NCBI GenBank assembly: GCA_027068415.1
Contig: JAMOTD010000015.1
Location: 1-64,000, forward strand
Origin: Desulfurobacteriaceae bacterium
GTDB taxonomy: Bacteria; Aquificota; Aquificia; Desulfurobacteriales; Desulfurobacteriaceae
DNA: 64,000 bases
Direction: 5' to 3'
Shown here in pieces: positions 11,033-43,078 of this stretch (position 1 is the first letter of the stretch; every line of letters begins with the position of its first letter). Under the pieces are notes generated by a model. It made no database searches. It saw nothing but the letters and a program-made list of their open reading frames with translations, and was not told the origin of the DNA. The position numbers and the translations under genes are program-made.

Positions 11033-11886
11033 TTTTCACCTCCGGAAAGCTCTTTAACCTTTTGCCAGTAGAGCTCGGTATACTCGGGACGGCTGTCGTC
11101 GTGGTAGAGAACGCCCCTGGGTATCTTTCCGGCCCTCTTCTCCTCGGGGAGCTTCTCCCAGGCCTTAACGGGAATCGTGTTCTCCTTAAACCAGAAGTAC
11201 ATCTCCTCAATGCTCATCCTGTTCTTCCTACCGTAGACGATTGTACAAGGTGAAAGAACTTCAATTAGGGAGAAGCCCTTGTGCTTGATTCCGTCCATAA
11301 TTAACTTCTTGAGCTCCATTGCGTGGTAGGCGGTTCCCCTTGCAACGTAAGTTGCTCCGGCGGCTATGGCCAACTTCGCAACGTCAAACTGGGGCTCGTA
11401 GTTTCCGTAGGGAGTTGTTGTAGCGTAAGAGCCTGTCGGGGTCGTAGGTGAAACCTGTCCGCCCGTCATTCCGTAAATCCAGTTGTTTATGAGAACTACC
11501 GTAATGTCAATGTTCCTTCTTGCTGCGTGGATAAAGTGGTTTCCGCCGATCGCAAGGGCGTCGCCGTCTCCAGTGAAGACGATTGTCGTAAGTTCCGGCC
11601 TTGCGAGCTTAAGGCCTGTTGCGAAGGTCGGAGCTCTACCGTGGGTGGTGTGAAGAGTGAAGCCGTCAAAGTATCCGGGAGTCCTTGAGGAGCACCCGAT
11701 ACCTGAAACCATTGCAACCTTGTCGTTGGGAATTCCCAGCTCGTCAAGGGCCATACAGGTAGCCCTGAAGGCCTGACCGATTCCGCAGCCCGGACACCAG
11801 ATTGTGGGCATCTTGTTGAGGCGGAGGTATTTAAAGTAAGGCTTTTTCTCTACAATTTTCTCCATGGGAATGTTAGGAGTACTCAT
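11029..11886 (-). CDS. korB: 2-oxoglutarate:ferredoxin oxidoreductase, beta subunit
   Basis: A 285-residue thiamine-diphosphate subunit. The CPGCG motif (Cys31, Cys34) begins the catalytic domain, GIGCSSR and HTTHGRAPTFATG follow, and the TPP/Mg2+ motif is GDGDALAIGGNHFIHAAR ending in NN. IYGMTGGQVSPTTP is typical of 2-oxoglutarate and related oxidoreductases. It starts at 11886, sharing one base with the korA stop, and overlaps korC. The C-terminal region has a Cys (LSPCTIVYG) expected to help ligate the Fe-S cluster of this subunit. Confidence 0.93.
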   Translation of the reverse strand: MSTPNIPMEKIVEKKPYFKYLRLNKMPTIWCPGCGIGQAFRATCMALDELGIPNDKVAMVSGIGCSSRTPGYFDGFTLHTTHGRAPTFATGLKLARPELTTIVFTGDGDALAIGGNHFIHAARRNIDITVVLINNWIYGMTGGQVSPTTPTGSYATTTPYGNYEPQFDVAKLAIAAGATYVARGTAYHAMELKKLIMDGIKHKGFSLIEVLSPCTIVYGRKNRMSIEEMYFWFKENTIPVKAWEKLPEEKRAGKIPRGVLYHDDSRPEYTELYWQKVKELSGGEK

Positions 11887-13037
11887 TACTTACCTCCTTT
11901 GGCGATTTCCTCTATCTTTGCAAGGATTTCGTGAGGGTAGATAATCTTCCCGTTGGCCCTGTTGAGCCTGTAAACGGGAGCTTCTCCCCTTGCGCACCTT
12001 TCAACCTCAAAGACGTACTGTCCCATGTTGAGCTCGGGAACGAGGATTGCCTTTACGCTCTTTGCAAGTTTATTGAGGGTCTCTTCCGGTGAAGGCCAGA
12101 TTGTGATTACCCTTAAAAGGCCCGCCTTGATTCCCTTCTCCCTTGCAAGGTCAACTGCAGTCTTTGCAGCCCTTGCGGTTGTTCCGAAAGTAACAATTGC
12201 AATTTCGGCGTCGTCAAGCTTGTACTCCTCGTTCTTCTCAAGCTCGGGCTGTCTGTTCTTGACCTTCCTAATCAATCTGTCAATTAACTCTTGACACATC
12301 TCCGGGTCGGTTGTGGGGAAGCCGGTGTAGTCGTGGTGGAGACCGGTAGCGTGGCCGCGATATCCGGGAGTTCCGTAGGGAGCTATTGCGGGAACGTCGT
12401 CCTCTCCGGGTTTGTAGGGAAGGTACTCCTCGGGCGGAACGTCGGGCATTTTTCTATTCCAGATTTCTACCTTGTCGGGGGTAAACTGAGCCATGTCAAC
12501 AGTTTCCCTCATGTGGCCGAGGACTTCGTCAAGGAGGAGTACTACGGGAGTCCTGAGCCTCTCAGCCCAGTTGAAGGCCCTTATTGTCTCCTCCATAATC
12601 TCCTGAACGTTCCCCGGATAGAAAACGGGAATGAGCTTGTCTCCGTGCGTTCCCCAGAGAGACTGCATGATTTCCTGCTGACCCGGTTGGGTCGGAAGAC
12701 CGGTTGAGGGACCGCCCCTTTGAACGTTTACGATGACGCAGGGAGCCTCAACCATGAAGGCGTAGCCGAGGTTCTCCTGCTTTAATGAAAAGCCGGGGCC
12801 TGAGGTTGCCGTCATTGACTTGAGGCCTGCAAAAGAACCTCCAACTACCGCTCCCATTGCGGCGATTTCGTCCTCCATCTGGATAAAAACTCCTCCGTGC
12901 TTAGGTAGGAGCTCCGCCATCTTCTCAGCAATCTCAGAAGAGGGTGTAATCGGGTAGCCTGCGTAGAACCTGCAGCCTGCAATTATTGCGGCCTCTGCAC
13001 AGGCGTGGTTTCCGTACTTTAACTCTAACTTTGCCAT
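11886..13037 (-). CDS. korA: 2-oxoglutarate:ferredoxin oxidoreductase, alpha subunit
   Basis: A 383-residue alpha subunit. The track frame extends to 13112, but ATG 13037 follows GGAGGAAGG and begins the conserved MAKLELKYGNHACAEAA, so that start is used. The domain I signature GCRFYAGYPITPSSEIAE, the MEDEIAAMGAVVGGSFAG segment and TSGPGFSLKQENLG match KorA. RGGPSTGLPTQPGQ is the conserved loop next to the active site. The C-terminal domain (about 285-380) begins AEIAIVTFGTTARAA. It works with KorB, KorC and the KorD ferredoxin in one complex. Confidence 0.94.
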   Translation of the reverse strand: MAKLELKYGNHACAEAAIIAGCRFYAGYPITPSSEIAEKMAELLPKHGGVFIQMEDEIAAMGAVVGGSFAGLKSMTATSGPGFSLKQENLGYAFMVEAPCVIVNVQRGGPSTGLPTQPGQQEIMQSLWGTHGDKLIPVFYPGNVQEIMEETIRAFNWAERLRTPVVLLLDEVLGHMRETVDMAQFTPDKVEIWNRKMPDVPPEEYLPYKPGEDDVPAIAPYGTPGYRGHATGLHHDYTGFPTTDPEMCQELIDRLIRKVKNRQPELEKNEEYKLDDAEIAIVTFGTTARAAKTAVDLAREKGIKAGLLRVITIWPSPEETLNKLAKSVKAILVPELNMGQYVFEVERCARGEAPVYRLNRANGKIIYPHEILAKIEEIAKGGK

Positions 13038-13048
13038 ATCCTTCCTCC

Positions 13049-13276
13049 CTATGCGCTTACTATTTCTTCGTACTCCTCGGGTGTAAAGACGTAGATGCAG
13101 AAGTCGGGGCAAATCATCTCACACTGCTTGCACCCTATACACTTTTCGGGGTGGGCAACGGTCATAATTGCCTTAACCTTGTCAAGCTTGAGAACCTGTG
13201 TAGGACAGACTGCAGCACAGATGTTGCACCCTTTACACCACTCTTCCTTAACTACAACTATTCCCTTTGCCGCCAT
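13049..13276 (-). CDS. korD: 2-oxoglutarate:ferredoxin oxidoreductase, delta (2[4Fe-4S]) subunit
   Basis: A 75-residue bacterial-type ferredoxin with two CxxCxxCxxxCP motifs (CKGCNICAAVCP and CIGCKQCEMICP), each ligating a [4Fe-4S] cluster. It passes electrons between the TPP-bound intermediate and external ferredoxin. It lies between sucD and korA with 20- and 11-base gaps, each carrying a strong ribosome-binding site. Confidence 0.94.
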   Translation of the reverse strand: MAAKGIVVVKEEWCKGCNICAAVCPTQVLKLDKVKAIMTVAHPEKCIGCKQCEMICPDFCIYVFTPEEYEEIVSA

Positions 13277-13296
13277 CTTTTCCTCCTTACTTTTCT

Positions 13297-14199
13297 TTAA
13301 AGAAGCCCCCTCTCTTTAAGGGCTTTCTCAACCATCTCTCCGATTTCTGCGGGAGTGTTGCACACGTATGCTCCCGCAGCTTTTAGGGCCTCCATCTTGC
13401 TCTTTGCGTCTCCTTTACCGCCGGAGATGATTGCTCCTGCATGTCCCATCCTCCTTCCCGGAGGTGCCGTAACTCCGGCGATGTAGGCAACTACGGGTTT
13501 GTCAACGCACTCTTTAATGTACTCTGCCGCCTCTTCCTCCATTGTTCCGCCAATCTCTCCTATGAGGACGATTGCGTCGGTTTCGGGGTCACAGTTAAAC
13601 ATCTCAACCGCTTCCCTGTGGGTTGTTCCGGGAACGGGGTCTCCGCCGATTCCGATTACGGTTGACTGGCCGATTCCCCTGCTTGTAAGCTGGTAGGCAG
13701 CCTCGTAGGTAAGGGTTCCGGAGCGGGAGACGATTCCAACTCTACCTTTCTTGAAGATGTGGCCGGGCATTATTCCCATTTTGCACTCTTCGGGGGTAAT
13801 CACTCCCGGGCAGTTGGGACCGACGTAACGGACTCCAGTGCCCTCAAGGGCCCTTTTAACCTTAACCATATCGTTTACCGGAATTCCCTCGGTAATACAG
13901 ACAATTAGCTTAATTCCGGCGTCTGCCGCCTCCATAATTGCGTCTGCAGCAAAGGCGGGGGGAACGAAGATTAGGGAAGCGTCTGCTCCGGTCTCCTTTA
14001 CCGCCTCCTCAACCGTGTTAAAGACGGGTACTTTGTACTTGCCCTCGTCGTCTGTCCATGTCATTCCACCCTTACCGGGAGTAACCCCTGCAACTATTTG
14101 AGTTCCGTAATCAAGACACTGCTTTGCGTGGAAGGAGCCCTCCTTACCTGTTAAACCCTGAACTACAACTTTGGTGTTCTTGTTTATAAGAATGCTCAT
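13297..14199 (-). CDS. sucD: Succinyl-CoA synthetase, alpha subunit
   Basis: A 300-residue CoA-binding subunit, close to the usual 290-300. The N-terminal [20 protein letters not shown] is the CoA-binding Rossmann fold. The active-site phosphohistidine lies in [23 protein letters not shown] and [16 protein letters not shown] are family signatures. With SucC it interconverts succinate plus ATP and CoA with succinyl-CoA, the substrate of the adjacent KorABCD. Size argues against the related citryl-CoA synthetase, whose subunits are longer. Confidence 0.95.
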
Positions 14200-14217
14200 T
14201 TTTCCCTCCCTTATCCT

Positions 14218-15387
14218 TTAGAGTTCACCTTTAGCAGCTTTTACGGCCTTCTGGGCGCCGTCTGCCATGTCCTTGGCGGGAATTATGTTGAGGCCGCTCT
14301 CCTCAAGCATCTTCCTTCCGAGCTCAACGTTCGTTCCCTCTAAGCGGACGATTAAGGGCCTGTCAAGCTCAACCTGCTTTGCTGCCTCAATAATTCCTCC
14401 GGCAATCCTGTCGCACCTGACTATTCCGCCGAAGATGTTTACGAAGATTGCCTTAACTTTGGGGTCTGAGAGAAGAAGCTTAAAGGCGGCCGCAACCCTC
14501 TCTACCGTTGCCGTTCCGCCGACGTCAAGGAAGTTTGCAGGCTCGCCGCCGAAGAACTTGATTGTGTCCATTGTTGCCATTGCAAGGCCTGCACCGTTAA
14601 CCATGCAACCAATGTTGCCGTCAAGGCGAACGTAGTTTAGGTCCCACTTCTTGGCCTCAAGCTCCAACGGGTCAATTTGGGTTGTATCTTCAAGCTCCTG
14701 AATGTCGGGGTGGCGGTAGAGGGCGTTGTCGTCAAAGTCAATTTTTGCGTCAAGGCAGATGAAGTTGTCTTCCTTAGTTTTTACCAGCGGGTTAATTTCT
14801 ATGAGTGAAGCGTCAAGCTCAAAGTACATCTTTGAGAGGGTCATGAGGATTTTTACGAACTGGCTGATTAGCTTCCTGTCGGTTAGGCCGATTTTAAAAG
14901 CAATCTTCCTTGCCTGGTAGGGAAGAAGGCCAATTGCGGGGTCTACGTGCTCCTTTATTATGAGCTCCGGGTTTGTTTTCGCGATTTCTTCAATCTCCAT
15001 TCCGCCTGCGGCGGAGACCATAAAGACCGGTCTTGAGACTTCCCTGTCAAGGGTTAAGCCTACGTAAAACTCCTTGTCTATGTTTACTCCTTCTTCAATA
15101 AGAACGCAGTTGATTGGAAGTCCTTCGGGATTCTGATAGGTTCTGAGGCGGCTGCCTATCATCTCAGCAGCGATTTTCCCGGCCTCTTCGGGGCTCTTTG
15201 CAAGCTTTACTCCGCCTGCCTTACCCCTTCCTCCTGCGTGGACTTGGGCCTTCACTACAACTACTGGGGTTCCCAGCTCCTTTGCGGCACACTCTGCCTC
15301 GTGGGCGTTGTGGGCGACGATTCCTCTGGGAACAGGTAGCCCGTACTTTTTGAAGATTTCTTTGGCTTGGTACTCGTGTATTTTCAT
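14218..15387 (-). CDS. sucC: Succinyl-CoA synthetase, beta subunit
   Basis: A 389-residue ATP-grasp subunit. The N-terminus [22 protein letters not shown] is the classic SucC opening. [17 protein letters not shown] binds nucleotide, EINPLV and [11 protein letters not shown] belong to the ATP-grasp and ligase domains, and [11 protein letters not shown] is the conserved C-terminal signature. It is the first gene of the operon. The 45 bases upstream are AT-rich, so a promoter could lie there or in the end of the HD-GYP gene; no clear hexamers were assigned. Confidence 0.95.
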
Positions 15388-25985: not shown

Positions 25986-26587
25986 TATACCCTGAGAACC
26001 TGGAGCTCCTCATTGAGTTCCTCTCTGAAGTTCCGGGAATAAGCGAGAGGGCGGCAGAGAGGGCAGTTCTCCTCCTCTCAAGGCTTCCGGAGGAGAAGAA
26101 GAGGGTGGTGATAAACGCCCTGAGGGAGCTTGAAGAGCTCGCTCCCTGTCCTGAGTGTGGTCTGCCCTCTTCAGGGGGGCTCTGCCGTATATGTAGCGAT
26201 GCCGAAAGGGATAGGAAAACAATCTGCGTAGTTGAGCAGCCCAGAGACGCCCTCTCAATTGAGAAGCTCGGAGAGTATAAAGGCCTCTACCACGTTCTCG
26301 GGGGGGTAATTTCCCCTCTGGAGGACATCTCCCCCGAAGACCTTAACATCGAGAAGCTCTTTTCAAGAATCAGGGAAGGGGGAGTTGAGAGCGTAATAAT
26401 AGCCCTCAACCCGACAGTTGAGGGGGAGGCTACCGCAAAGTTCCTCCTTGACAGGCTCGTGAAGATGGGAGTTAAGGTTTACAGAATTGGCTACGGAATC
26501 CCCTACGGAGGGACGATTGACGCTTCAGACGAGCTGACCCTCAGGAAAGCCTTTGAGGATAAGAAACTCATAGCTGGAGGAGAGTAA
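25982..26587 (+). CDS. recR: Recombination protein RecR
   Basis: A 201-residue RecR. The order is a helix-hairpin-helix (about 10-30), a four-Cys zinc finger (CPECG...CRIC near residue 55-72), a Toprim domain with VVEQPRDALSIEK, and a C-terminal GIPYGGTIDASDELTLRKAF. With RecF/RecO it loads RecA at gaps. The start is TTG 25982, overlapping the ybaB TGA; the SD is weak (GGGGGG), so translation probably depends on coupling. Confidence 0.95.
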   Translation: MIYPENLELLIEFLSEVPGISERAAERAVLLLSRLPEEKKRVVINALRELEELAPCPECGLPSSGGLCRICSDAERDRKTICVVEQPRDALSIEKLGEYKGLYHVLGGVISPLEDISPEDLNIEKLFSRIREGGVESVIIALNPTVEGEATAKFLLDRLVKMGVKVYRIGYGIPYGGTIDASDELTLRKAFEDKKLIAGGE

Positions 26588-27153
26588 TGATAGAGATTAG
26601 ATGGCACGCCCGCGGTGGTCAGGGTGCCGTTACGGCATCAAAAATTCTGGCCTCTTCAGTTATCAGGGAGGGCAAGTACGCCCAGAGCAACCCCGATTAC
26701 GGGGCTGAGAGGAGTGGAGCTCCATTGAGAACCTACAACAGAGTTTCCGAGGAGCCCATTACCCTCCACTGTATGGTTATCAACCCCGACATAGTTGTAG
26801 TAGTTGACCCGACCCTCCTTAAGACCGTTCCCTTCCTTGAGGGAACCGACGAGAACGCCGTTTTGGTAATCAACACCGATAAATCTCCCGCAGAAATCAG
26901 GCAGAAGTACAACATCAAGGGAAGGAAAATCTACACCGTTGACGCAACCAAAATCGCCATGGAGGAGCTCAAAAGACCCCTCATGAACGTCCCCATGCTC
27001 GGAGCTCTGGTCAGGGTCTTGGGGAACGTCGTTGACGTTAAGACCGTTGAGGAAGACCTCAAGAAAACTTTCGGGAAGAAACTCTCCGAAAATGCCCTCA
27101 AAGCAAACATAAGGGCACTATACAGAGCTTATGAGGAGGTACAGTCAGAATGA
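26587..27153 (+). CDS. porC: Pyruvate:ferredoxin oxidoreductase, gamma subunit
   Basis: A 188-residue gamma subunit. MIEIRWHARGGQGAVTASKILA and YAQSNPDYGAERSGAPLRTYNR are the PorC signatures, with NVPMLGALVRV near the C-terminus. It overlaps recR by one base and porD by 4. The order gamma-delta-alpha-beta is the ancestral four-subunit POR layout of thermophiles and archaea. In an autotroph the complex makes pyruvate from acetyl-CoA and CO2. Confidence 0.93.
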   Translation: MIEIRWHARGGQGAVTASKILASSVIREGKYAQSNPDYGAERSGAPLRTYNRVSEEPITLHCMVINPDIVVVVDPTLLKTVPFLEGTDENAVLVINTDKSPAEIRQKYNIKGRKIYTVDATKIAMEELKRPLMNVPMLGALVRVLGNVVDVKTVEEDLKKTFGKKLSENALKANIRALYRAYEEVQSE

Positions 27154-27446
27154 TTGGGAAGAGCTGGAAAGAGATGCCTATAGGAGCGGTAATACCCGAG
27201 CCGGGCTCAAGTGAGAAGTACAACACCGGCGAGTGGAGGGCCTGGAGGCCCGTATTTGAGGAGAGCAAGTGCGTTAACTGTATGCTCTGCTGGGTCTTCT
27301 GCCCCGACTCCTGCATCTTAGTTAAAGAGGAGAAGATGGTCGGGATTGACTACGACCACTGTAAAGGTTGCGGCATCTGTGCCCACGAGTGCCCCACAAA
27401 AGCCCTTGAGATGAAACCCGAATACCTGTTCCGTGAGGAGGACTAA
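27150..27446 (+). CDS. porD: Pyruvate:ferredoxin oxidoreductase, delta (ferredoxin) subunit
   Basis: A 98-residue 2[4Fe-4S] ferredoxin subunit. The motifs are CVNCMLCWVFCPDSC near residue 42 and CKGCGICAHECP near 70. The N-terminal PGSSEKYNTGEWRAWRPVF is typical of PorD. It hands electrons between PorB and external ferredoxin. Confidence 0.94.
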   Translation: MIGKSWKEMPIGAVIPEPGSSEKYNTGEWRAWRPVFEESKCVNCMLCWVFCPDSCILVKEEKMVGIDYDHCKGCGICAHECPTKALEMKPEYLFREED

Positions 27447-27448
27447 CT

Positions 27449-28657
27449 ATGAGGCCCGAGCTTATAAAAGAGGTGACCTACGTTCCCTACTCAGGAAACA
27501 TGGCGGCAGCAGAGGCCATGAGGCAGATTAACCCCGACGTTGTAGCCGCCTACCCGATTACTCCCCAAACGGAGCTTATGCAGTTCTTTGCAGACTTTGT
27601 TGCAAACGGCCTTGTTGATACTGAGTACATTCCCGTTGAGAGTGAGCACTCTGCAATGTCGGCCTGCGTCGGAGCGGCTGCTGCAGGTAGCAGGGCAATG
27701 ACCGCAACTGCCGGTCCCGGACTTGCCTACATGTGGGAGGTTCTCGGAATCGCCTCCGGAATGAGGCTTCCCATAGTTATGACCGTCGTAAACAGGGCAC
27801 TCTCGGCTCCCATTAACATTCACGGCGACCAGTCCGACATGATGGGAGCAAGGGACCAGGGCTGGATTATGCTCTTTTCAGAAAACGCCGAGGAGCAGTA
27901 CGACAACCTCGTTCAGGCCTTTAAAATTGCTGAAGATGAAAGAACCCGCCTTCCGGTAATGGTAGGAATGGACGGCTTCGTTATCTCCCACGCAATTGAG
28001 AGGGTTAGGCTTTTACCTGACAAGGCCGTTGAAGAGTTCGTCGGAGAGCCTAAGGTAATGTACCCCCTCCTTGACGTTGACAACCCGGTAACCCACGGCC
28101 CCGTTGCCATGACCGACTCCTACATGGAGTTTAAGCGTCAGCAGAGAGAGGCCATGATGGAGGCCTACAAGGTTATAAGGGAGGTAGGCCAGCAGTTTGA
28201 GGAGGCCTTCGGTAAGAAGTACGAGCACGTTGAGACCTACATGATAGACGACGCCGACTACGTTCTAATTATCATCGGCTCAACTGCCGGAACTGCCAAG
28301 TACGTAATCAACAAGCTGAGAAAGGAGAAAGGGATAAAGGTAGGCCTTATTAAAATCAGGACTTACCGTCCCTTCCCCTACTACGACGTGATGGATGCCC
28401 TTGAGGCTTCAAACGCAAAAGCCGTTGGAGTCTTTGACAGGGCAGAGACCTTTGGAGCTGTAGGAGGCCCACTCTACAGCGACATTGCAACTGCTATGTA
28501 TCTGAGGGGTAAGACCTATCCGATGGTCAGCTTCATCTACGGCCTCGGCGGAAGGGATACAAACGTCCACCACATTGAGGAGGCCGTTGATAAGGTAATG
28601 GCAAAAGCTGCCGGAAAAGAGGTTCCCCTCATTAACTACCTTAACCTTAACGAGTAA
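27449..28657 (+). CDS. porA: Pyruvate:ferredoxin oxidoreductase, alpha subunit
   Basis: A 402-residue alpha subunit. The key segments are NPDVVAAYPITPQTELMQ, VESEHSAMSACVGAAAAGSR, TATAGPGLAYMWE and the INIHGDQSDMMGARDQG loop found in pyruvate-specific enzymes. The C-terminal domain holds IIGSTAGTAKYV and GAVGGPLYSDI. It starts 2 bases after porD. The substrate call (pyruvate) comes from the PorA-type loop and from the four-subunit order. Confidence 0.94.
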   Translation: MRPELIKEVTYVPYSGNMAAAEAMRQINPDVVAAYPITPQTELMQFFADFVANGLVDTEYIPVESEHSAMSACVGAAAAGSRAMTATAGPGLAYMWEVLGIASGMRLPIVMTVVNRALSAPINIHGDQSDMMGARDQGWIMLFSENAEEQYDNLVQAFKIAEDERTRLPVMVGMDGFVISHAIERVRLLPDKAVEEFVGEPKVMYPLLDVDNPVTHGPVAMTDSYMEFKRQQREAMMEAYKVIREVGQQFEEAFGKKYEHVETYMIDDADYVLIIIGSTAGTAKYVINKLRKEKGIKVGLIKIRTYRPFPYYDVMDALEASNAKAVGVFDRAETFGAVGGPLYSDIATAMYLRGKTYPMVSFIYGLGGRDTNVHHIEEAVDKVMAKAAGKEVPLINYLNLNE

Positions 28658-28668
28658 TGGAGGAAGAG

Positions 28669-29652
28669 ATGGCTCAACAAGTTAAACCTTCAGAGATAAA
28701 GGTTCCCCCCTTAAAGAAGCTTACTAACTACCCCGAAAAGCTCGCTCCCGGCCACAGGCTCTGTGCAGGGTGCGGAGCTTCAATAATTATCAGGCAGATG
28801 TACATGGTTGCAAGTGCCCTGGGCTACGAGCTTATCTGGGCAAACGCAACCGGCTGCGTTGAGGTCTGTACGACCGTTTACCCTTATACATCCTGGAAGT
28901 CTCCTTGGATTCACAACGCCTTTGAGAACGCTGCGGCGACGATTTCCGGCGTTGAGGCTGCTTATAAAGCTTTAAAGAGGAAGGGTAAGCTCCCCACCGA
29001 TAAGAAGGTTAAGTTCGTAGCCCTCGGAGGCGATGGGGGAACTTATGATATCGGTTTTCAGTCTTTTTCCGGAGCCCTTGAGAGGGGACACGACTTTATC
29101 TACGTCTGCTACGACAACGAAGCCTACATGAATACCGGTATTCAGCGCTCCTCTGCTACTCCCAAGTACGCAAACACGACAACCCAACCGGTAGGTTCTG
29201 AGAGCCTCGGTAAGCCCCAGCACAAGAAGTGGCTTCCTGAGGTTGCAGCAGCCCACGAAATCCCCTACGTTGCTCAGGTTTCCCCCTCTCACTGGAAAGA
29301 CCTCATGGAGAAGTTCAAGAAGGCCCTCTTAACCGAAGGTCCCTCTTTCATAAACGCCTTTACCGTTTGTCCGAGGGGCTGGAGGACTAAAGAGGAAGAG
29401 GGTATGAAGGTTGCAAGGCTTGCCGTTGAGACCAACTACTGGCCCCTCTTTGAGGTTGAGAACGGTAAGTGGAGAATCACCCACAGGCCCAAGAACCCCA
29501 AGCCTTTAGAGGAGTACTTGAAGATTCAGGGTAGATTTAAACATTTGTTTAAACCTGAAAATCAGGATAAAATTAAAGAGCTGCAGGAGGAGGTTAACAG
29601 ACGCTGGGAGTGGCTCAACAAAATGGAAGAACTAACTAACAGGGAAGAGTAA
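28669..29652 (+). CDS. porB: Pyruvate:ferredoxin oxidoreductase, beta subunit
   Basis: A 327-residue TPP subunit. ATG 28669 is chosen because GGAGGAAG (28659-28666) precedes it; an in-frame ATG at 28657 overlaps the porA stop. CAGCG (near residue 34) and GCVEVC provide cluster ligands. The TPP motif is GGDGGTYDIGFQSFSGAL through YDNEAYMNTG, and RSSATPKYANTTT is typical PorB. A further Cys in FTVCPRGW near the C-terminus completes the [4Fe-4S] site. Confidence 0.95.
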   Translation: MAQQVKPSEIKVPPLKKLTNYPEKLAPGHRLCAGCGASIIIRQMYMVASALGYELIWANATGCVEVCTTVYPYTSWKSPWIHNAFENAAATISGVEAAYKALKRKGKLPTDKKVKFVALGGDGGTYDIGFQSFSGALERGHDFIYVCYDNEAYMNTGIQRSSATPKYANTTTQPVGSESLGKPQHKKWLPEVAAAHEIPYVAQVSPSHWKDLMEKFKKALLTEGPSFINAFTVCPRGWRTKEEEGMKVARLAVETNYWPLFEVENGKWRITHRPKNPKPLEEYLKIQGRFKHLFKPENQDKIKELQEEVNRRWEWLNKMEELTNREE

Positions 29653-35952: not shown

Positions 35953-36735
35953 ATGGCCCTCTTTAGCTGCTACGTTGACGTTGAGAGGTTTCTCGGGGAG
36001 CCCGTAAAGGAGCTGGCTCGTTTTCTCGTTTGCCTGAGGAGGAGGGAGAGGCTTCCGGTAATAGTTACTATTGCCCGATTCTTTCAGAGCGTAGAGCACC
36101 TTGAGCACTTCTACCGCTTTAGGAGGGAGAAAAGGGAGGAGTTCCTCGCATCCCTTCCCCTTTCCGAAGCCGAGAGGAAAATCCTCTGGTCTCTCCTTAA
36201 GAACTTCTTCCTGAGGCACTCTGAGAACTCCTCAGGTAAGCCGATTCCCCAAAACGACCTTATAGCCCTGAGGAAGGGAAGGCTCTTTGAGGAGCTGGTT
36301 TACCACTTGGGGCCGGTTAAGAGGGAGAAGGTTGAGCTTACTTCAATGCACTGCCAGCCCATGGTTAACAGGAAGAGGGTTGAGATAAGGTGCAAGGGGA
36401 GGAGCCTTTCAAACAAGAACCTTGACGTTGTCTTCTGGGGAAGGGATTACGTTGAGGGGTACGAGTGTAAGGGAAACGTTCAGTTCTTCCTTGAGCTCGG
36501 CCTGAGGGGAGGCGAGAAGGGGAGGAAGGTAAGGGAGAAGGTAATGTACCTGAACCAGCTCGCCCGGTTTTTAAAGTTTGTCTTTAAGGAGGTTCACATC
36601 TACCTTGCCAGTTTTGCCCCTGACGTTGATTTAGATAGGTGTAGGGAGCTCTCCCTCCGCTACGTATCCGAGTGCGGAAGGAGGGAGCTCCACTTTGAGC
36701 TCATTACAATTGAGGACTTCGTAAACTACTTGTAG
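35953..36735 (+). CDS. Unrecognised protein with PD-(D/E)XK-like nuclease motif
   Basis: A 260-residue cytosolic, basic protein without a known family. Residues 158-173 show LDVVFWGRDYVEGYECK, that is Asp158, Glu171, Cys172, Lys173, spaced like the D-x(n)-E-x-K active site of PD-(D/E)XK nucleases. Before it lies the helix GRLFEELVYHLG, whose Glu could be the motif-I residue. After it, a Lys/Arg-rich helix (KGRKVREKVMYLNQLARFLKF). It follows flgL by 12 bases on the same strand, so it may be co-transcribed with flagellar genes. Nuclease activity is inferred from the motif only. Confidence 0.6.
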   Translation: MALFSCYVDVERFLGEPVKELARFLVCLRRRERLPVIVTIARFFQSVEHLEHFYRFRREKREEFLASLPLSEAERKILWSLLKNFFLRHSENSSGKPIPQNDLIALRKGRLFEELVYHLGPVKREKVELTSMHCQPMVNRKRVEIRCKGRSLSNKNLDVVFWGRDYVEGYECKGNVQFFLELGLRGGEKGRKVREKVMYLNQLARFLKFVFKEVHIYLASFAPDVDLDRCRELSLRYVSECGRRELHFELITIEDFVNYL

Positions 36736-36965
36736 AGAACCTTTGCACAGTTTCCGCAGGTGTTGAGCCCCACAGACTTTAAGGCCGCAAAGAGGCTTGC
36801 AACCTGACAGAGCTCAATTCCGCTTAAGGTATCTGCATCAACGTGGACGATTTGGACTACCTCCATTCCCTCCCTGCTTACCTGATTGCAGATTGACTTC
36901 TCGGCTCCTACCTCAAAGATGTGAATCTCTTTGGTTTTGGGGTTAATCATCACTTCGTAGCTCAT
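36726..36965 (-). CDS. Small CxxC protein of unknown function
   Basis: A 79-residue protein with no signal or membrane segment. It has an N-terminal beta region (YEVMINPKTKEIHIFEVG), an isolated Cys (SICNQVS) and a C-terminal CGNCAKVLYK that could bind a metal or be redox-active. It is convergent with the PD-(D/E)XK-like gene, overlapping it by 10 bases, and follows the OFOR beta gene by 32 bases in the same direction. It may be the last gene of that operon. No family recognised. Confidence 0.6.
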   Translation of the reverse strand: MSYEVMINPKTKEIHIFEVGAEKSICNQVSREGMEVVQIVHVDADTLSGIELCQVASLFAALKSVGLNTCGNCAKVLYK

Positions 36966-36997: not shown

Positions 36998-37786
36998 CTA
37001 TACCCTCTCCTCGTAGGTTAGTTTTTCTGTTTTATAGAAAATCCCTATGGGGATTCTGACTTCCTCGTCCTCCCTGTTGTAGTCCCACTCCCTCGCCTTT
37101 TCCATTGCCCTTTCAAAGTCCGTAAAGTCGTGGCCTTCCTCCTCTAATTTGTAGCAGTGTTTCCTGTAGAAGGAGAAGGTGTTGAAGAATGAAACGCAGG
37201 GCTGAAGGACGTCAATAAACGAAAAGCCTTTATGCTTTATAGCCTCCTTTAAAAGCCACTTTAGGTGAGGAACGTCTCCGGCAAAGCCCCTTGCAACGAA
37301 GGTAGCCCCGGCAGAGAGCATCAGAGCTATCGGGTTCATCGGCTCTTCCGGAGGCCCTTCTGGGGTTGACTTTCCTTTAAAGTGGGATGGAGAGGTGGGA
37401 GTAAACTGACCTGTTGTAAGGCTGTAAGCCCTGTTGTCGTGGACTACTGCCGTTATGTCGGCGTTCCTCTTTGCAGCAAAAATCAGGTGGGAAATTCCCT
37501 CTGCGTAGATGTCCCCGTCTCCCACGAAACCTACGCAGACGAGTCTGTTGTTTATCAGCTTCATTCCTTGAAGGTTGCTCAGTGCCCTTCCGTGGATTGA
37601 GTAGAAGCTGTTAAGGTTCAGGTAGTCAACGATTTTACCGTGGCAACCGATTCCCGAGGCAATCACGAAGTTCTCTAAGGGAATTTCAGCCGAGAGCTCC
37701 TTAACCGCCTCCTCAAAAGCCTTTAAAATGCCGAAGTTTCCGCACCCGGGACACCAGGTATTCTCTGCGTACGTCTTAAGCTCCAT
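36998..37786 (-). CDS. Two-subunit-type 2-oxoacid:ferredoxin oxidoreductase, beta subunit
   Basis: A 262-residue TPP subunit. The start is ATG 37786 behind GGAGGGAGAG, overlapping the alpha stop by 11 bases. CPGCGNFG near residue 13, then SGIGCHGK, FYSIHGRALSNLQGMK, VGDGDIYAEGISHLIFAAKRN and HDNRAYSLTTGQFTPTSP. This is the KorB/short-beta class that pairs with a fused gamma-alpha subunit and needs no separate delta ferredoxin. The conserved Cys in VLQPCVSF should complete the [4Fe-4S] site. The substrate is unknown; 2-oxoglutarate, branched 2-oxoacids or pyruvate are possible. Confidence 0.88.
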   Translation of the reverse strand: MELKTYAENTWCPGCGNFGILKAFEEAVKELSAEIPLENFVIASGIGCHGKIVDYLNLNSFYSIHGRALSNLQGMKLINNRLVCVGFVGDGDIYAEGISHLIFAAKRNADITAVVHDNRAYSLTTGQFTPTSPSHFKGKSTPEGPPEEPMNPIALMLSAGATFVARGFAGDVPHLKWLLKEAIKHKGFSFIDVLQPCVSFFNTFSFYRKHCYKLEEEGHDFTDFERAMEKAREWDYNREDEEVRIPIGIFYKTEKLTYEERV

Positions 37787-39398
37787 CTCTCCCTCCAAGA
37801 AAAGCCTTTAGCTCCTCCTTAAAAATCGGCCTCGTGTCGTACTTCCTGAAGTTTTTGTCTGCTTTTATGCCGTAGAGTTTAAGGAGCCTTTCAAACTGGC
37901 CGCTTACAGAGAGCTCCACAACTACAGTCTCCTCTGCCCCTTTAATTTCATCCTTTAACCTCTCTAAGGGGAAGGGCTCAAGGTAGTTGGGCTTGACCGC
38001 TTTAAATCCGAGCTCCTCCCCTACTTCGCAGCAGACTCCCCAGTTCTCTCCCCACGTTATTAAAACTCTTTTGGAGTTTAAATCTCCTCCTACACTTACT
38101 GCTTCTTTATCGTCTCTTACGAACTCCTCAATCGCCCTTCTCTTCCTTTCCCTCTTTTCCTTCATAAGGTTAATCTTCAGAGGCTCTTCTGTCGTTATCC
38201 CCAGCTCGTCGTGCTCGTAGCTGTTTACCTTTACGACCGCCCCCTTTGTTCCGGGAAAGGCAAGGGGCGAAATTCCGTTTTCCGTTATTTTGTAGCGCCT
38301 GTACTCTCCCTCTCCGCTCCAGAGCTCCGGCTCCTCAATAACCTTTTCCCTCTCTATCTCCTGAGTGAAGAAGCTCTCTGCAACGTTTTTGCTTGAAAGG
38401 AGTATTACCGGCGTCTGGAACTTCCAGGCAAGGTTCATAGCCTTCCTTGAGAAGAGGTAGCACTCTCTCGCATCTGACGGAGCGAGGACTATTCTCGGAA
38501 AGTCTCCGTGGCCTGCAAAGAGGACAAAGAGGAGGTCTGCCTGCTCGGTATAGGTGGGAACGCCCGTTGAGGGAGCTCCCCTCTGGGCCTCATAGATAAC
38601 TACCGGGGTTTCGCTCATTCCCGCAAGGCTTAAAGTTTCGGTCATCAGGGCAAAGCCTCCTCCTGAGGTTCCCGTCATTGCCCTTCCCCCGGCGTAGGCC
38701 GCCCCCAAGACCATGTTTATTACGCCTATCTCATTTTCGGGTTGGATAACCTTAATTCCCAGCTTCCTTTTGTGGGATGCCAAAAAGTGGAGAACCGGCG
38801 AGGCGGGGGTCATCGGGTAGGCTATATAGATGTTCAGACCTCCGTCAACGGCACCTAAGGCAATCCCTTCGCTTCCGGAAATGTAATCTCCTTTTATTCC
38901 TTCAACCTCAACTATTTCCTCAACCTCTCTGCCCAGCCGGTAGGCCTCAAGGAAGATTTTCTCGTTCTCCTCGTAGTCCGGGAGCTCCCTCAGAACCGCC
39001 AGACCCTGCTCCTCCTCAATCCTGAAAGCTTTCAGGAGAGCTCCGAGAATTGCCGAGCTCCTCTTTACTCCCTTTGCCATTTTCCTGAAGGGGAGTTTGA
39101 TGTCGCCCGGGAGCTCTGAGTCAACAATCCAGGTTGCTCCCTCCTTTGCGTTCTCCTTGTGGAGGCTGAGGCTTCTTGAGTCAAGGGCTACGATGTAGTC
39201 AACCTTTTTTACCGGAGCTCCCACCGGCTCGTTTGAGAACCTGACTATTGAGAAGTTGTGGCCTCCCTTAATCAGGGATGGGTAGTCGTGGTAGGTGAAG
39301 ACGCTATAGCCGAGGTTTACTAAGACTTTTGCAAGGAGGTTGGCCGCCTCCTTTATCCCCTCTCCGGCCTCCCCTCCTATTAAAACGGCGCGCTCCAT
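37776..39398 (-). CDS. Two-subunit-type 2-oxoacid:ferredoxin oxidoreductase, fused gamma-alpha subunit
   Basis: A 540-residue fusion. The open frame runs to 39671 inside the upstream gene, but ATG 39398 behind AAGGAGGGAGAG begins the conserved gamma domain MERAVLIGGEAGEGIKEAANLL, so it is used. The gamma part is residues 1-180 (DYPSLIKGGHNFSIVRFS). Alpha begins near 195 with SGSEGIALGAVDGGLNIYIAYPMTPASP, then QPENEIGVINMVLGAAYAGGRAMTGTSGGGF and EAQRGAPSTGVPT. The C-terminal domain has VLITWGENWGVCCEVGEELG. This KorA-type subunit pairs with the beta gene downstream. An ADP-forming acyl-CoA synthetase gene lies 47 bases upstream. Confidence 0.9.
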   Translation of the reverse strand: MERAVLIGGEAGEGIKEAANLLAKVLVNLGYSVFTYHDYPSLIKGGHNFSIVRFSNEPVGAPVKKVDYIVALDSRSLSLHKENAKEGATWIVDSELPGDIKLPFRKMAKGVKRSSAILGALLKAFRIEEEQGLAVLRELPDYEENEKIFLEAYRLGREVEEIVEVEGIKGDYISGSEGIALGAVDGGLNIYIAYPMTPASPVLHFLASHKRKLGIKVIQPENEIGVINMVLGAAYAGGRAMTGTSGGGFALMTETLSLAGMSETPVVIYEAQRGAPSTGVPTYTEQADLLFVLFAGHGDFPRIVLAPSDARECYLFSRKAMNLAWKFQTPVILLSSKNVAESFFTQEIEREKVIEEPELWSGEGEYRRYKITENGISPLAFPGTKGAVVKVNSYEHDELGITTEEPLKINLMKEKRERKRRAIEEFVRDDKEAVSVGGDLNSKRVLITWGENWGVCCEVGEELGFKAVKPNYLEPFPLERLKDEIKGAEETVVVELSVSGQFERLLKLYGIKADKNFRKYDTRPIFKEELKAFLGGRDGA

Positions 39399-39445
39399 CT
39401 CTCCCTCCTTATAGGTTCTATCTATTAGTTTAACAAAAGGGTTCT

Positions 39446-41407
39446 TTATTGAACCGCCTTTGAGATGGAGCGAACCGCCCTCATCGGCTCTCCGTAAACA
39501 GGGAGTTCCTCCCTCTTTAAAATCTCCTCTCCCAGCTTTACGGAGTGGCCTCCCATCAGGCAGGCAACAACCGGCCTCTTTGAGAGCTCCCTGAACCTTA
39601 CGATTTCGTGGGCAATCTGGGGAACGTCGGTCATTGACTGGGGAGTGACGATAACGAGGGAAAAGTCCCACCCTCCGTACCCCGATAGGACGTTAAAGGC
39701 CTTCCTGTACCTTTCAGAAGTTGCATCTCCGATAAGGTCTATCGGGTTTATCCTGCTCCAGTTGGGCGGGAGGAAAGCCGAGAGCTCCTCTTTAACCGGC
39801 TCAATTTCCGCAAGCTCAAGGCCGAAGGTCTCTGCGTAGTCTGAGGCCAGAGTTCCGGGCCCTCCTGCGTTTGTTACTATTAAAAGTCTTCTGCCCCTTA
39901 ACCTGCCGTAGCTCCTTAAAAGCCGGCAGAGGTCGAAGGCCTCCTCAAGGGAGTCGGCAACGATTCCCCCCTTACACTCAACGCAGTCTCTAAAGAGCTT
40001 GTAGTCTCCGGCCAGCGAGCCGGTGTGGGAGGATGCTGCTCTCTTTCCGGCACTGCTCCTTCCCGCCTTTATAAAGACGGCGGGCTTTCTCTTTAAGAAC
40101 TCTAAGAGCTCCGCCCCCAGCTGAGTTCCCTCAACGTAGGCAAGAATTACCTTAGTCTCCCCTCTCCTTGTTGCAAGTTCAAGGGCTTCTGCCAGCTCAA
40201 TGTCGGCCTGATTTCCGAGGCTCACTATCTCAGAAAAGCCGATTTTCTCCTCGTTTGCCCTGTCAATAACGGCCGTTATGAGAGCTCCGCTCTGGGAGAG
40301 GAAGGAAATTTCCCCTTCGGGAGGTGAGACCGCCGAAAAGGAGGCGTTAAGCCCCAGAGATGGAACTATAAAGCCGAGAGTGTTGGGGCCTAAAATCCTC
40401 ATTCCGTAATTTTTTGCCCTTTTTACGAGCTCCCTCTCAAGCTCCTCCCTTCCAGCCTCCTTGAACCCGGCTGTTATAACCACCGCCAGCTTTACCCCCT
40501 TTTTCCCGCACTCCTCAATAACTTTGAGGGTTATCTCGGGAGGAACGGCTATGAGGGCACAGTCAAGGGTTTCGGGTATGTCAAGGACCGAAGGGTAGCA
40601 CTTTAAACCGAGGACTTCCCCGTACTTTGGGTTTACCGGGAAGACTTTACCCCTGAACCTTTCAAGGTTTCTGATTAGGGCGTAGCCCACCTTTGCCGGG
40701 TTATTTGAGGCTCCGATTACCGCAACCGAGCCGGGTCTAAAGAGTTCCAAGGGGAGCTCCCTGAATTCTCTCCTCTCGGGAGGAGGTGATGTAAAACCCT
40801 TACCGTCTGCCGGGGCAACTCTTTCGGTAGAGATGAAGAGGGGATTAAGGTCAAGCTCCTCAATCTCCGGGTGCTTCCTGCACAGCTCCTTTACCTTCTC
40901 AAGGAAGTCAAGGAAGAGGTTTAAATTTCCCTTAAACCCCCTGAACCCCTCAATTAACTTAAAGAGCTTTGTCTCTTTCAGCTTTTTAAGGCTCTCTTCT
41001 TTATCTGCCGAAAGGGGAATGAAGACTGCATCCTTAAAGAGCTCAACCAGTATTCCTCCGCTTCCTGCCCCTACTGTGTGGAGGAACGAAGGGTCTCTCT
41101 TTACCCCGATAAAGGCCTCTATTCCCTTTTGCTCCTCAACTACTATGAACTCCTCAACCTCGGGGAACTTCTCTGAGAGCTCCTTCAGCTTCCCCTTCAG
41201 CTCCTCTTTAGACGAGACCCTTACAACCCCTCCCCTGTCGCTCTTGTGGTAGATTTCCTCAGAGACGATTTTTAGGTAGGCGGGGAAACTCTCCCACGCT
41301 GGCTCCTCTCCCCTCTTAACTACTTTGTGGCGGGGAGTAGGAGCTCCCACCTCCTTTAAGAGAGAGTAAACCTGCGGCTCTGTAAGGGGTCTTCTCTCTA
41401 AATCCAC
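39446..41407 (-). CDS. ADP-forming acyl-CoA synthetase (acetate-CoA ligase type), beta-alpha fusion
   Basis: A 653-residue fusion. Residues 1-200 are an ATP-grasp domain (YHKSDRGGVVRVSSKEEL, ELDLNPLFIS). Residues 220-325 are a CoA-binding Rossmann domain (RPGSVAVIGASNNPAKVGYAL). The ligase parts follow, with ILGPNTLGFIVP, FLSQSGALITAVIDRANE and the phosphohistidine His461 in SSHTGSLAGD. The enzyme reversibly turns acyl-CoA, ADP and phosphate into acid, ATP and CoA. It overlaps corA by 10 bases and precedes the OFOR genes, which suggests the pair makes acyl-CoA from 2-oxoacids and conserves it as ATP, or runs in reverse. Confidence 0.9.
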   Translation of the reverse strand: MDLERRPLTEPQVYSLLKEVGAPTPRHKVVKRGEEPAWESFPAYLKIVSEEIYHKSDRGGVVRVSSKEELKGKLKELSEKFPEVEEFIVVEEQKGIEAFIGVKRDPSFLHTVGAGSGGILVELFKDAVFIPLSADKEESLKKLKETKLFKLIEGFRGFKGNLNLFLDFLEKVKELCRKHPEIEELDLNPLFISTERVAPADGKGFTSPPPERREFRELPLELFRPGSVAVIGASNNPAKVGYALIRNLERFRGKVFPVNPKYGEVLGLKCYPSVLDIPETLDCALIAVPPEITLKVIEECGKKGVKLAVVITAGFKEAGREELERELVKRAKNYGMRILGPNTLGFIVPSLGLNASFSAVSPPEGEISFLSQSGALITAVIDRANEEKIGFSEIVSLGNQADIELAEALELATRRGETKVILAYVEGTQLGAELLEFLKRKPAVFIKAGRSSAGKRAASSHTGSLAGDYKLFRDCVECKGGIVADSLEEAFDLCRLLRSYGRLRGRRLLIVTNAGGPGTLASDYAETFGLELAEIEPVKEELSAFLPPNWSRINPIDLIGDATSERYRKAFNVLSGYGGWDFSLVIVTPQSMTDVPQIAHEIVRFRELSKRPVVACLMGGHSVKLGEEILKREELPVYGEPMRAVRSISKAVQ

Positions 41408-42357
41408 CTTTTCCTCTTAAAGTAGTAAATAAGCCCGAGGCTTATCAGGAGCATAAAGAGGGAAATCAGGACTATTCCGTAGGCCTTCTGGGCAAAGGGA
41501 AGGTTCTCAACGTTCATTCCGTAGAATGAGGAGATGAACATAAGGGGCTCAAGGACTGCAACGAAGATTGTTAAGGTTTTCATAATTTCGTTTAGCTTAA
41601 ACGAGACCAAAGACGAGAAGACATTTAAAACGTTCTGGATAAACTCGTGGAGGGTTTCGGCTCTGTCGTAGAGAATGCTGATTTCGTCAAGGAGGTCCCT
41701 AAAGTAGTGGATGTTTTCGGGGCTTGAAAACTTGGCACAGTAGGACATTCCGAGCTTAAAGGAGTCCCTCAGCTGTTTTAGAGCTCTCCTCAAAGTTAAA
41801 ATCTCGTAGGAGAGGTCGGAAATATCCTCAAGGAGCTCCGGGTTCTGCTCCTTAAAAACCTTTGCCTCAATGTCGTCTGCCTGCTCCTCTAAGACGTTCG
41901 TAACCTGCTTGAACTTCTCGGTTATTATTGAGGAGATTATCCAGAGAACCTTTTCGGTTCCCTCCTTAAAGGGCTCCTCCTCTAATCCCAGTTCTTTCCT
42001 TGCAACCTCAAAGAGCCTTCGGCTCCCTACCGTTATTATGAAGTCTTTGCCCCAGAAGACGCAGAGCTTTTTCTGTCTGCTTATTCCTCCGTCGTAGTAG
42101 ACAAAGAGAAAAAAGAGGTAATTATCAAAGTTCTCTACCTTTGAGCGCTCTTCGGTTTTGCAGTCCTCTATTGAGAGCTCGTTTACCTTAAACTCCTTCG
42201 TTAAGAGCTCCTCGGCCTGCTCGTCAATTCTCCTCAGGTGTATCCAGAGGGGTCTTTTCCTTACTAAGCCTGGGTTGTCAAGGAGGGCCGAGATTGGGGA
42301 GGTAATTGTCGTTATCGTCTCCCCCGAGGGAACAACGAGCCAGGCCACATTCTCCAT
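41398..42357 (-). CDS. corA: CorA-family divalent cation transporter
   Basis: A 319-residue CorA. The cytosolic alpha/beta domain and long helices fill residues 1-250. The two C-terminal membrane segments flank the signature YGMNVENLPF (GMN), with TIFVAVLEPLMFISSF before and YGIVLISLFMLLISLGLIYYF after. It forms a pentamer importing Mg2+, Co2+ or Ni2+. It overlaps the DUF2148 stop upstream and the acyl-CoA synthetase start downstream, so it is fixed within this metabolic operon. Confidence 0.93.
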   Translation of the reverse strand: MENVAWLVVPSGETITTITSPISALLDNPGLVRKRPLWIHLRRIDEQAEELLTKEFKVNELSIEDCKTEERSKVENFDNYLFFLFVYYDGGISRQKKLCVFWGKDFIITVGSRRLFEVARKELGLEEEPFKEGTEKVLWIISSIITEKFKQVTNVLEEQADDIEAKVFKEQNPELLEDISDLSYEILTLRRALKQLRDSFKLGMSYCAKFSSPENIHYFRDLLDEISILYDRAETLHEFIQNVLNVFSSLVSFKLNEIMKTLTIFVAVLEPLMFISSFYGMNVENLPFAQKAYGIVLISLFMLLISLGLIYYFKRKRWI

Positions 42358-42878
42358 TACATCTTCCTGTCAAAGAAGATGTTTTTACCGCTTACAGAGA
42401 GGGGGATTCCGTAGCCCAGTTTAACCTCTTTCGGGACGAGGCCTCCGGCTATTGCTGCCTTTCCGAACGAGAACATAACTCTGTTGTCTATGTTGTTCTG
42501 GCTTGCAACTTTCACTGCCGAACCTATTGCAATCCCGAGGTCTCCGACTGCGTAAGCACAGTAGGCGCCGGCCTTTAAAGACTTTTCACAGTCCTCAAAG
42601 CCGCAGAAACCGCAGAAGGGAACGCCTCTGGGCTTAACCTCGGTTCCTATAAAGACGACCAGAAGAGAATCTCTCACGTTCTTTGCGTCCCTTATAAAGA
42701 AGGGGATTTCCTTCTCCCTTCCGATTTTCTCCATGAGTTCCGCTACTCTCTCTTTCTCTTTGCCTTCAAAGATTTTCGTGTAGAGGAGGTTTACCCCCTT
42801 TCCCTTGGGAGCAGTTATTGCGCTGCAGCACATAAGCTCCGCAACAGTCCTTACCGCCCCGTAGTACTCAAACTCCAT
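42357..42878 (-). CDS. DUF2148 ferredoxin-domain protein
   Basis: A 173-residue protein. The start is ATG 42878 behind GGAGGAG; an in-frame GTG at 42881 is only one base from the SD. The DUF2148 pattern shows at AELMCCSAITAPKGKGVN, then a cluster of Cys (VPFCGFCGFEDCEKS) and GAYCAYAVGDLGIAIGSAV. The Cys arrangement suggests an Fe-S site. The family is common in anaerobes and has no assigned function. It sits between the DUF1858 gene (overlapping its stop) and corA. Confidence 0.85.
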   Translation of the reverse strand: MEFEYYGAVRTVAELMCCSAITAPKGKGVNLLYTKIFEGKEKERVAELMEKIGREKEIPFFIRDAKNVRDSLLVVFIGTEVKPRGVPFCGFCGFEDCEKSLKAGAYCAYAVGDLGIAIGSAVKVASQNNIDNRVMFSFGKAAIAGGLVPKEVKLGYGIPLSVSGKNIFFDRKM

Positions 42879-43078
42879 CACTCCTCCAGGGCTTTTTCAA
42901 GCTCTTTAATTGCCTTTTCCGGCTTTAGCCTGTGGGCCTTAAAGACCTCCTCAAGGGTTTCGTCTTTAAAACCTTCGCAGTAGATACACTCCTCAATAAG
43001 CTGGTAGAGCTTTTCCTTTAGCTGGGGGAACTTTTCAAGGCACTCCCTTAGGGTCATTTGGAGGGTGGGTTTTTCCAC
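42878..43078 (-). CDS. DUF1858-like small protein
   Basis: A 66-residue helical protein. MTLRECLEKFPQLKEKLYQLIEECIYCEGFKDETLEEVFKAHRL matches the DUF1858/ScdA-N pattern (segments: CLEKFP, CIYCEGF, ETLEEVFKAHRL). Such domains accompany hybrid-cluster proteins and Fe-S repair proteins. Here it is free-standing and first in the operon, with TGA overlapping the DUF2148 start. Metal or nitric-oxide sensing is a guess. Confidence 0.7.
   Translation of the reverse strand: MEKPTLQMTLRECLEKFPQLKEKLYQLIEECIYCEGFKDETLEEVFKAHRLKPEKAIKELEKALEE

Follow-up and report, generated by a model that had tools for sequence, protein, structure and literature searches.

A 64,000-nucleotide window of the genome of a vent-dwelling, H2- and CO2-using member of the Desulfurobacteriaceae (contig JAMOTD010000015.1, positions 1 to 64,000, of assembly GCA_027068415.1) encodes on its minus strand an ADP-forming acyl-CoA synthetase (ACD), followed by the two subunits of a 2-oxoacid:ferredoxin oxidoreductase (OFOR). 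The ACD and OFOR genes appear to form a functional unit, and the recurrence of this cassette within the family, in several different genomic surroundings, goes beyond chance. We propose that the three gene products work as one metabolic module with the net reaction 2-oxoacid + ADP + Pi + oxidised ferredoxin <-> carboxylic acid + CO2 + ATP + reduced ferredoxin. Taken whole, as one module acting on a neutral 2-oxoacid in an ATP-yielding role, this is our best explanation, and we hold it with slightly more confidence than doubt.

Organization of the ACD-OFOR cassette

The ACD gene (39446..41407, minus strand) encodes a protein of 653 amino acids with the Pfam domains ATP-grasp_5, CoA_binding_2, Succ_CoA_lig, and Ligase_CoA_2. 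The order is that of a beta-alpha fusion, with ATP-grasp_5 at residues 4-201 followed by the CoA-binding and Succ_CoA_lig domains, and one protein carries the CoA-binding, flavodoxin-like, ligase, and ATP-grasp subdomains that the ACD superfamily requires. It is colinear with NF045494 and reaches 484.9 bits against the acetate equivalog TIGR02717, below the cut-off of 567. The catalytic residues His461 (SSHTGS) and His54 (HKSD) are both invariant in 14 aligned family members; in the superfamily they correspond to the swinging-loop phosphohistidine and to a second, ATP-grasp histidine that serves as the second phosphate carrier (PMC11494057).

The OFOR is encoded by two genes. The gamma-alpha fused subunit (37776..39398, minus strand; 540 amino acids) has its POR gamma domain ahead of the POR_N alpha domain, scores 508.9 bits against TIGR03710 (cut-off 482.75), and contains the motif YPMTP at residues 194-198, Arg273 for the substrate carboxylate, Thr278, and Tyr394. 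The beta subunit (36998..37786, minus strand; 262 amino acids) matches Pfam TPP_enzyme_C and PFO_beta_C, lies above the TIGR02177 cut-off, and carries cluster cysteines 12, 15, 48, and 197, at positions invariant among aligned members, together with a GDGD...DN motif for thiamine pyrophosphate (TPP). By sequence, the solved structure closest to the gamma-alpha subunit is the Magnetococcus 2-oxoglutarate enzyme OGOR (6n2n), and the beta subunit has homologues in 5b48, 5b46, and 6n2n.

These open reading frames, domains, and gene order confirm what had been predicted from the letters alone, namely a beta-alpha fused ACD with His461 in SSHTGS placed before a gamma-alpha OFOR and its beta subunit. 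The same prediction described the spacing as tight, which is true of the alpha-beta join, where the genes overlap by 11 nt, and does not hold for the ACD-OFOR join, where the gamma-alpha gene starts 47 nt past the ACD stop codon and the gap carries its own Shine-Dalgarno sequence. ACD and OFOR are nonetheless neighbours on one strand, as in OFOR-ACD systems of the Thermococcales type. A terminator-like hairpin in the gap (39440-39455) is weak and was set aside; 13 such sites were found against 12.7 expected by chance. KorABCD and PorABCD are present as first described, but with IorA elsewhere in the assembly (G000:C9) the cassette OFOR is the fourth OFOR of the genome and not the third.

The chemistry of each step is taken from the two enzyme families. 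The OFOR (gamma-alpha plus beta, with TPP and a single [4Fe-4S] cluster) would interconvert a 2-oxoacid with acyl-CoA, CO2, and reduced ferredoxin. The ACD would then interconvert acyl-CoA, ADP, and Pi with free acid, CoA, and ATP through two phosphohistidines, His461 and then His54. Judged by the linkage of the genes, coupling of the two reactions is quite likely.

Conservation of the cassette in Desulfurobacteriales

The strongest evidence that ACD and OFOR act together is that the cassette stays joined while its surroundings change. Across the 24 Desulfurobacteriales genomes surveyed, both enzymes are encoded in 12, ACD alone in two, and neither in 10, so that every genome with the cassette-type OFOR (12/12) also has the ACD (Fisher p of about 7e-5, a value inflated by shared ancestry). 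The genes are contiguous in 10 of these 12 genomes, within about five unrelated flanking contexts: CorA/DUF2148 in the genus of the window; PorB-bioB and tilS-ftsH in genus g2; an ABC-transporter operon (lptB-like, by eye) in G115; KorABC-SucCD in G130; and an iron-sulfur-type gene (by eye) in G122. Pairwise distances also correlate (ACD against gamma-alpha, r = 0.82; ACD against beta, r = 0.91), part of which reflects shared species history. The remaining two genomes depart from contiguity: in G134 ACD and OFOR stand 1.8 kb apart, around an insert that contains a GGDEF gene, and in G135 the two lie on different contigs.

The ACD and OFOR could instead act on unrelated substrates and be neighbours through shared regulation or chance. 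The separated genes of G134 and G135 agree with this, as does the occurrence of each enzyme without the other in relatives, which weighs against the proposed module. Two genomes of genus g4 encode a beta-alpha ACD, 48-51% identical, among unrelated neighbours and with no gamma-alpha OFOR (G125:C1:40723-42657 and G126:C1:216735-218666), and in Aquificaceae genomes with the OFOR no ACD was detectable; neither enzyme, then, strictly needs the other. The genes have nevertheless stayed adjacent on moving to several contexts, and the cassette-type OFOR was found in no Desulfurobacteriales genome without the ACD, which leaves this alternative quite unlikely. Patchiness itself is in keeping with the report that D. 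thermolithotrophum HR11 is without an ADP-forming synthetase (PMC12724263).

In the window, the cassette belongs to a longer string of minus-strand genes. The ACD start overlaps the stop of a CorA-type Mg/Co transporter gene (41398..42357, Pfam CorA), upstream of which lie a gene for a DUF2148 ferredoxin-domain protein (42357..42881, with synteny within the genus only) and, at the head of the overlapping string, a gene for a 66-amino-acid DUF1858-like protein (42878..43078; a weak Pfam match of 27.7 bits, below the cut-off) that is conserved within the genus. CorA neighbours the cassette in G133, G134, and G135, not in other genera. Directly 3' of the OFOR beta gene is an open reading frame of 79 amino acids (36726..36965, minus strand) with four cysteines and no Pfam match; among the loci searched, a copy (94% identical) occurs in G133 only.

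OFOR subfamily, ACD relationships, and candidate substrates

The cassette OFOR belongs to a widespread, uncharacterised subfamily that, by phylogeny, is apart from the 2-oxoglutarate enzymes. One genome scan yielded 562 related OFOR stretches, and analysis was carried out on the best 80 of the 562. In a tree of 86 sequences, H. thermophilus KorAB not among them, the Desulfurobacteriaceae OFORs group beside Aquificaceae metagenome-assembled genomes (MAGs) with support of 100, an arrangement that does not support a recent transfer of the OFOR from archaea. The large surrounding subfamily spans sulfate reducers, CPR bacteria, DPANN, Thermoproteota, Bathyarchaeota, and Asgard archaea. It is split from Magnetococcus OGOR and the Sulfolobus StOFORs (SH-aLRT 98), although OGOR is a long branch whose exact place is unsure, and the cassette OFOR does not group with the 2-oxoglutarate enzymes sampled. 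YPMTP and TSGGGF are common to all subfamily members examined; at the site of StOFOR Asp468 most of them have Tyr, and at that of Lys125(beta) nearly all have Thr.

Outside Desulfurobacteriaceae, an ACD directly adjoins the OFOR in only one Nanoarchaeota contig (L129) among the stretches kept; a Lokiarchaeota contig has an ACD near the OFOR but on the opposite strand. This scarcity, together with the lack of pairing in Aquificaceae, makes the pairing a feature of Desulfurobacteriaceae and not a property of the subfamily. Elsewhere, OFOR neighbourhoods differ. A subfamily OFOR of MAG CSMAG_1200 (L083:170-11822) lies within a string resembling, by eye, sulfhydrogenase (NiFe hydrogenase) genes, suggestive of H2-linked ferredoxin chemistry. 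In Aquificales MAGs (L077:2779-13360 and L078), it follows a HypA/HypE/HypF-like string and precedes a gene for a 4Fe-4S dicluster (Fer4_22) protein and a reverse gyrase-like gene, all neighbours except Fer4_22 being assigned by eye. In several CPR contigs of Paceibacterota/Nealsonbacteria (L094, L103, L117, L136, and L143), it stands after leucyl-tRNA synthetase-like and/or GlmS-like genes and before a YvcK-like gene, an order that recurs among them and was again assigned by eye.

The family ACDs form one clade (100) in a tree of the alpha domain, with a separate-subunit Nanoarchaeota alpha protein as the nearest row sampled (95/91). The sampled Archaeoglobaceae beta-alpha ACDs fall in other clades and have different pocket residues, in a tree with weak deep branches and limited sampling. 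One fusion event shared with Archaeoglobaceae is thus not supported by the tree, weak as its deep branches are, and the beta-alpha fusion may have arisen independently, more than once. The ACD acyl pocket, of a common Leu-Phe-Ala-Gly-Gln type, is not diagnostic and was discarded as a predictor of substrate.

The OFOR substrate pocket sits between alpha, beta, and a second alpha subunit. In the cassette enzyme, Ser41, Thr278, Lys51(beta), and Leu123(beta) match the StOFOR pocket, and Tyr replaces Asp468 in every family member. Mutating this Asp in StOFOR1 (D468A) abolished activity on 2-oxoglutarate and kept that on pyruvate, and K49I had the same effect (PMC5020499). A counterexample makes the pocket argument weak: Hydrogenobacter KorAB has Leu in place of the Asp and is yet specific for 2-oxoglutarate (PMC5020499). 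A further argument against 2-oxoglutarate is that KorABCD and SucCD already fill that role (10406..15387, minus strand; NCBIfam PRK08659, PRK09628, SucC, and SucD, with the KorD open reading frame at 13049-13276). On balance, the OFOR substrate is probably not 2-oxoglutarate; a neutral short-chain 2-oxoacid, whether pyruvate, 2-oxobutyrate, or a branched one, appears most likely.

A different reading is a role in the reductive tricarboxylic acid (rTCA) cycle. Hydrogenobacter keeps more than one 2-oxoglutarate enzyme, and the cassette OFOR could by analogy be an additional enzyme for 2-oxoglutarate or pyruvate that feeds the cycle, with the ACD helping out as a succinyl-CoA or acetyl-CoA synthetase in certain states of redox or oxygen supply. 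Such a role would suit the two-subunit architecture shared with Hydrogenobacter KorAB (PMC5020499), the 2-oxoglutarate enzyme 6n2n as closest solved alpha subunit, and the cassette adjoining KorABC-SucCD in G130. It is unlikely all the same, given the SH-aLRT of 98 that separates the subfamily from Magnetococcus OGOR and the StOFORs, the Tyr at a residue that StOFOR needs for 2-oxoglutarate, and the intact SucCD and Kor of the genome.

Proposed metabolic role and relation to known systems

The favoured role for the module would be ATP-yielding overflow or maintenance under limitation of H2 or of an electron acceptor. The idea of an archaeal-like pair that takes a 2-oxoacid to acyl-CoA and on to acid plus ATP had been put forward in the sequence-only reading, and its core gains support from linkage, co-inheritance, and intact catalytic residues; the list of roles attached to it fares only partly. 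An energy valve disposing of reduced ferredoxin is possible. Amino-acid fermentation finds no support beyond an M29 aminopeptidase gene upstream of the OFOR in G135, a single genome and too little to argue peptide fermentation. Acetate assimilation is weakened, and we reject it as the main role: AMP-forming AcsA scores over the cut-off of its family in 21 of the 24 Desulfurobacteriales, among them every cassette genome except one, so acetate can be activated without the ACD, and T. ammonificans, which grows on H2 and CO2 by an rTCA cycle with ATP citrate lyase, takes in external acetate only passively (PMC12743299).

Besides SucCD, the ACD is the sole acyl-CoA-to-ATP enzyme found, since AcsA is already present and no credible phosphotransacetylase was detected; matches to PF01515 of about 19-26 bits (cut-off 24), in frames of 332-343 amino acids, are probably PlsX-type, judging by their length and score. 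That an ADP-forming enzyme conserves energy, and that acetate activation is otherwise provided for, modestly favours the ATP-yielding direction, which we put at roughly even.

Several features of the host weigh against this role. A dedicated pyruvate synthase, PorCDAB (26587..29652, plus strand; NCBIfam PorC, PorD, PorA, and PorB), is already in the genome. Known members of the family grow lithoautotrophically, so a surplus of 2-oxoacid has no clear source. Glycogen could have been one, as glycogen synthase occurs in 8/12 cassette genomes against 0/12 of the others, save for a fragmentary match in G114. It is absent, however, from the window's own genome, which is 99.98% complete, and the glycogen operon is decayed in the closest relative, G134; these two facts rule out glycogen fermentation as a present source here and leave only a possible ancestral link. 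A family search found no alpha-glucan phosphorylases in the order. The glycogen storage pathway is being lost within one genus: the glycogen-type operon is intact in G133 (L199, G133:C2:940000-957000), with several GH57-like genes (by eye), a GT5 synthase, and GalT-like and ROK-like kinase genes; it is truncated in G134 (L200, G134:C1:735000-751000); and the GT5 synthase is gone from the genome of the window.

Both ACD and OFOR are reversible, and the pathway could run toward anabolic salvage. The ACD would use ATP in activating a short or branched acid taken up from outside, where neighbouring fermenters excrete it, the OFOR would carboxylate the acyl-CoA at the expense of reduced ferredoxin, and the 2-oxoacid would be transaminated to an amino acid. 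H2-driven cells should be rich in low-potential ferredoxin, which makes salvage a serious rival in H2-rich cells; IorA is also present, methanogens are known to have OFORs with an anabolic role (Tersteegen 1997, cited in PMC13285125), and the passive uptake of T. ammonificans does incorporate external acetate (PMC12743299). For acetate, on the other hand, AcsA already does the job, the cassette contexts examined have no acid transporter or aminotransferase as a recurrent neighbour, and the pull of activation is weaker with ADP-forming than with AMP-forming enzymes. We regard salvage as the less probable use, though one with a real claim.

Turning back to the ATP-yielding module, its importance lies in the host. 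Desulfurobacteriaceae are models for ancestral H2/CO2 metabolism, and if the cassette is active, part of the family can make ATP at substrate level, or fix CO2 in an additional step, in a way not captured by models of flux and energy. The cassette probably serves as a small module for ATP gain or acid recycling that published maps of metabolism in the group do not include; in the T. ammonificans reconstruction (PMC5441870), the main text says nothing of acetate, a 2-oxoacid oxidoreductase by that name, or an ADP-forming enzyme. Our explanation, if true, would also provide a first function for the widespread OFOR subfamily of CPR bacteria, DPANN, Asgard archaea, and sulfate reducers. A bolder and only tentative extension is that one lineage of hydrogen-dependent rTCA autotrophs carries a self-contained, relocatable, archaeal-style module for reversible carboxylation and substrate-level phosphorylation, built on an OFOR of the uncharacterised subfamily and drawing ATP from 2-oxoacids or fixing extra CO2 onto acids scavenged from vent fermenters, a hidden mixotrophy or fermentation in supposedly strict autotrophs.

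ACD-OFOR operons are already known from Pyrococcus (PMC3942289), with related clusters in Firmicutes (PMC13285125), and the present finding is a sound, ordinary-to-interesting metabolic case that adds no new class of system. What sets it apart from the known cases is its OFOR subfamily, a beta-alpha ACD within this clade, a host lineage of autotrophs, and the conserved way in which the cassette behaves. The direct precedent is Pyrococcus furiosus, where the alpha subunit of ACS2 (PF0532) is in an operon with IOR; this system of Thermococcales peptide fermentation likewise places an ADP-forming synthetase with an OFOR and has the same net chemistry (PMC3942289). It differs in its IOR-type OFOR, separate-subunit alpha2beta2 ACD, and peptide-fermenting host, whereas the cassette, from a lineage of lithoautotrophs, combines a gamma-alpha/beta OFOR with an ACD fused in beta-alpha order. 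HpdDEFG-type aryl-pyruvate oxidoreductase clusters of Firmicutes similarly include an ATP-yielding acyl-CoA converter, either an acyl kinase or an ADP-forming ligase (PMC13285125), but they are a different OFOR cluster with four-subunit or IOR-type enzymes in a fermenting host.

For the individual enzymes, Sulfolobus tokodaii StOFOR1 and StOFOR2 (5b46 and 5b48), which are broad in specificity, have the same gamma-alpha plus beta architecture and four of five pocket residues in common with the cassette OFOR. The latter differs by Tyr for Asp468, Thr for Lys125(beta), YPMTP for YPITP, and TSGGGF for TSGPGF, and forms a separate clade. Magnetococcus marinus OGOR (6n2n) and Hydrogenobacter KorAB share the domain fusion, but both are 2-oxoglutarate enzymes; in the former, Arg occupies the site of Lys49(beta) and Leu that of Asp468, and the tree places it well apart. 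Finally, the beta-alpha ACDs of Archaeoglobaceae (NF045494 type) and the 3-hydroxypropionate-CoA ligase of Nmar have the same domain order as the cassette ACD and are colinear with it over nearly its full length.

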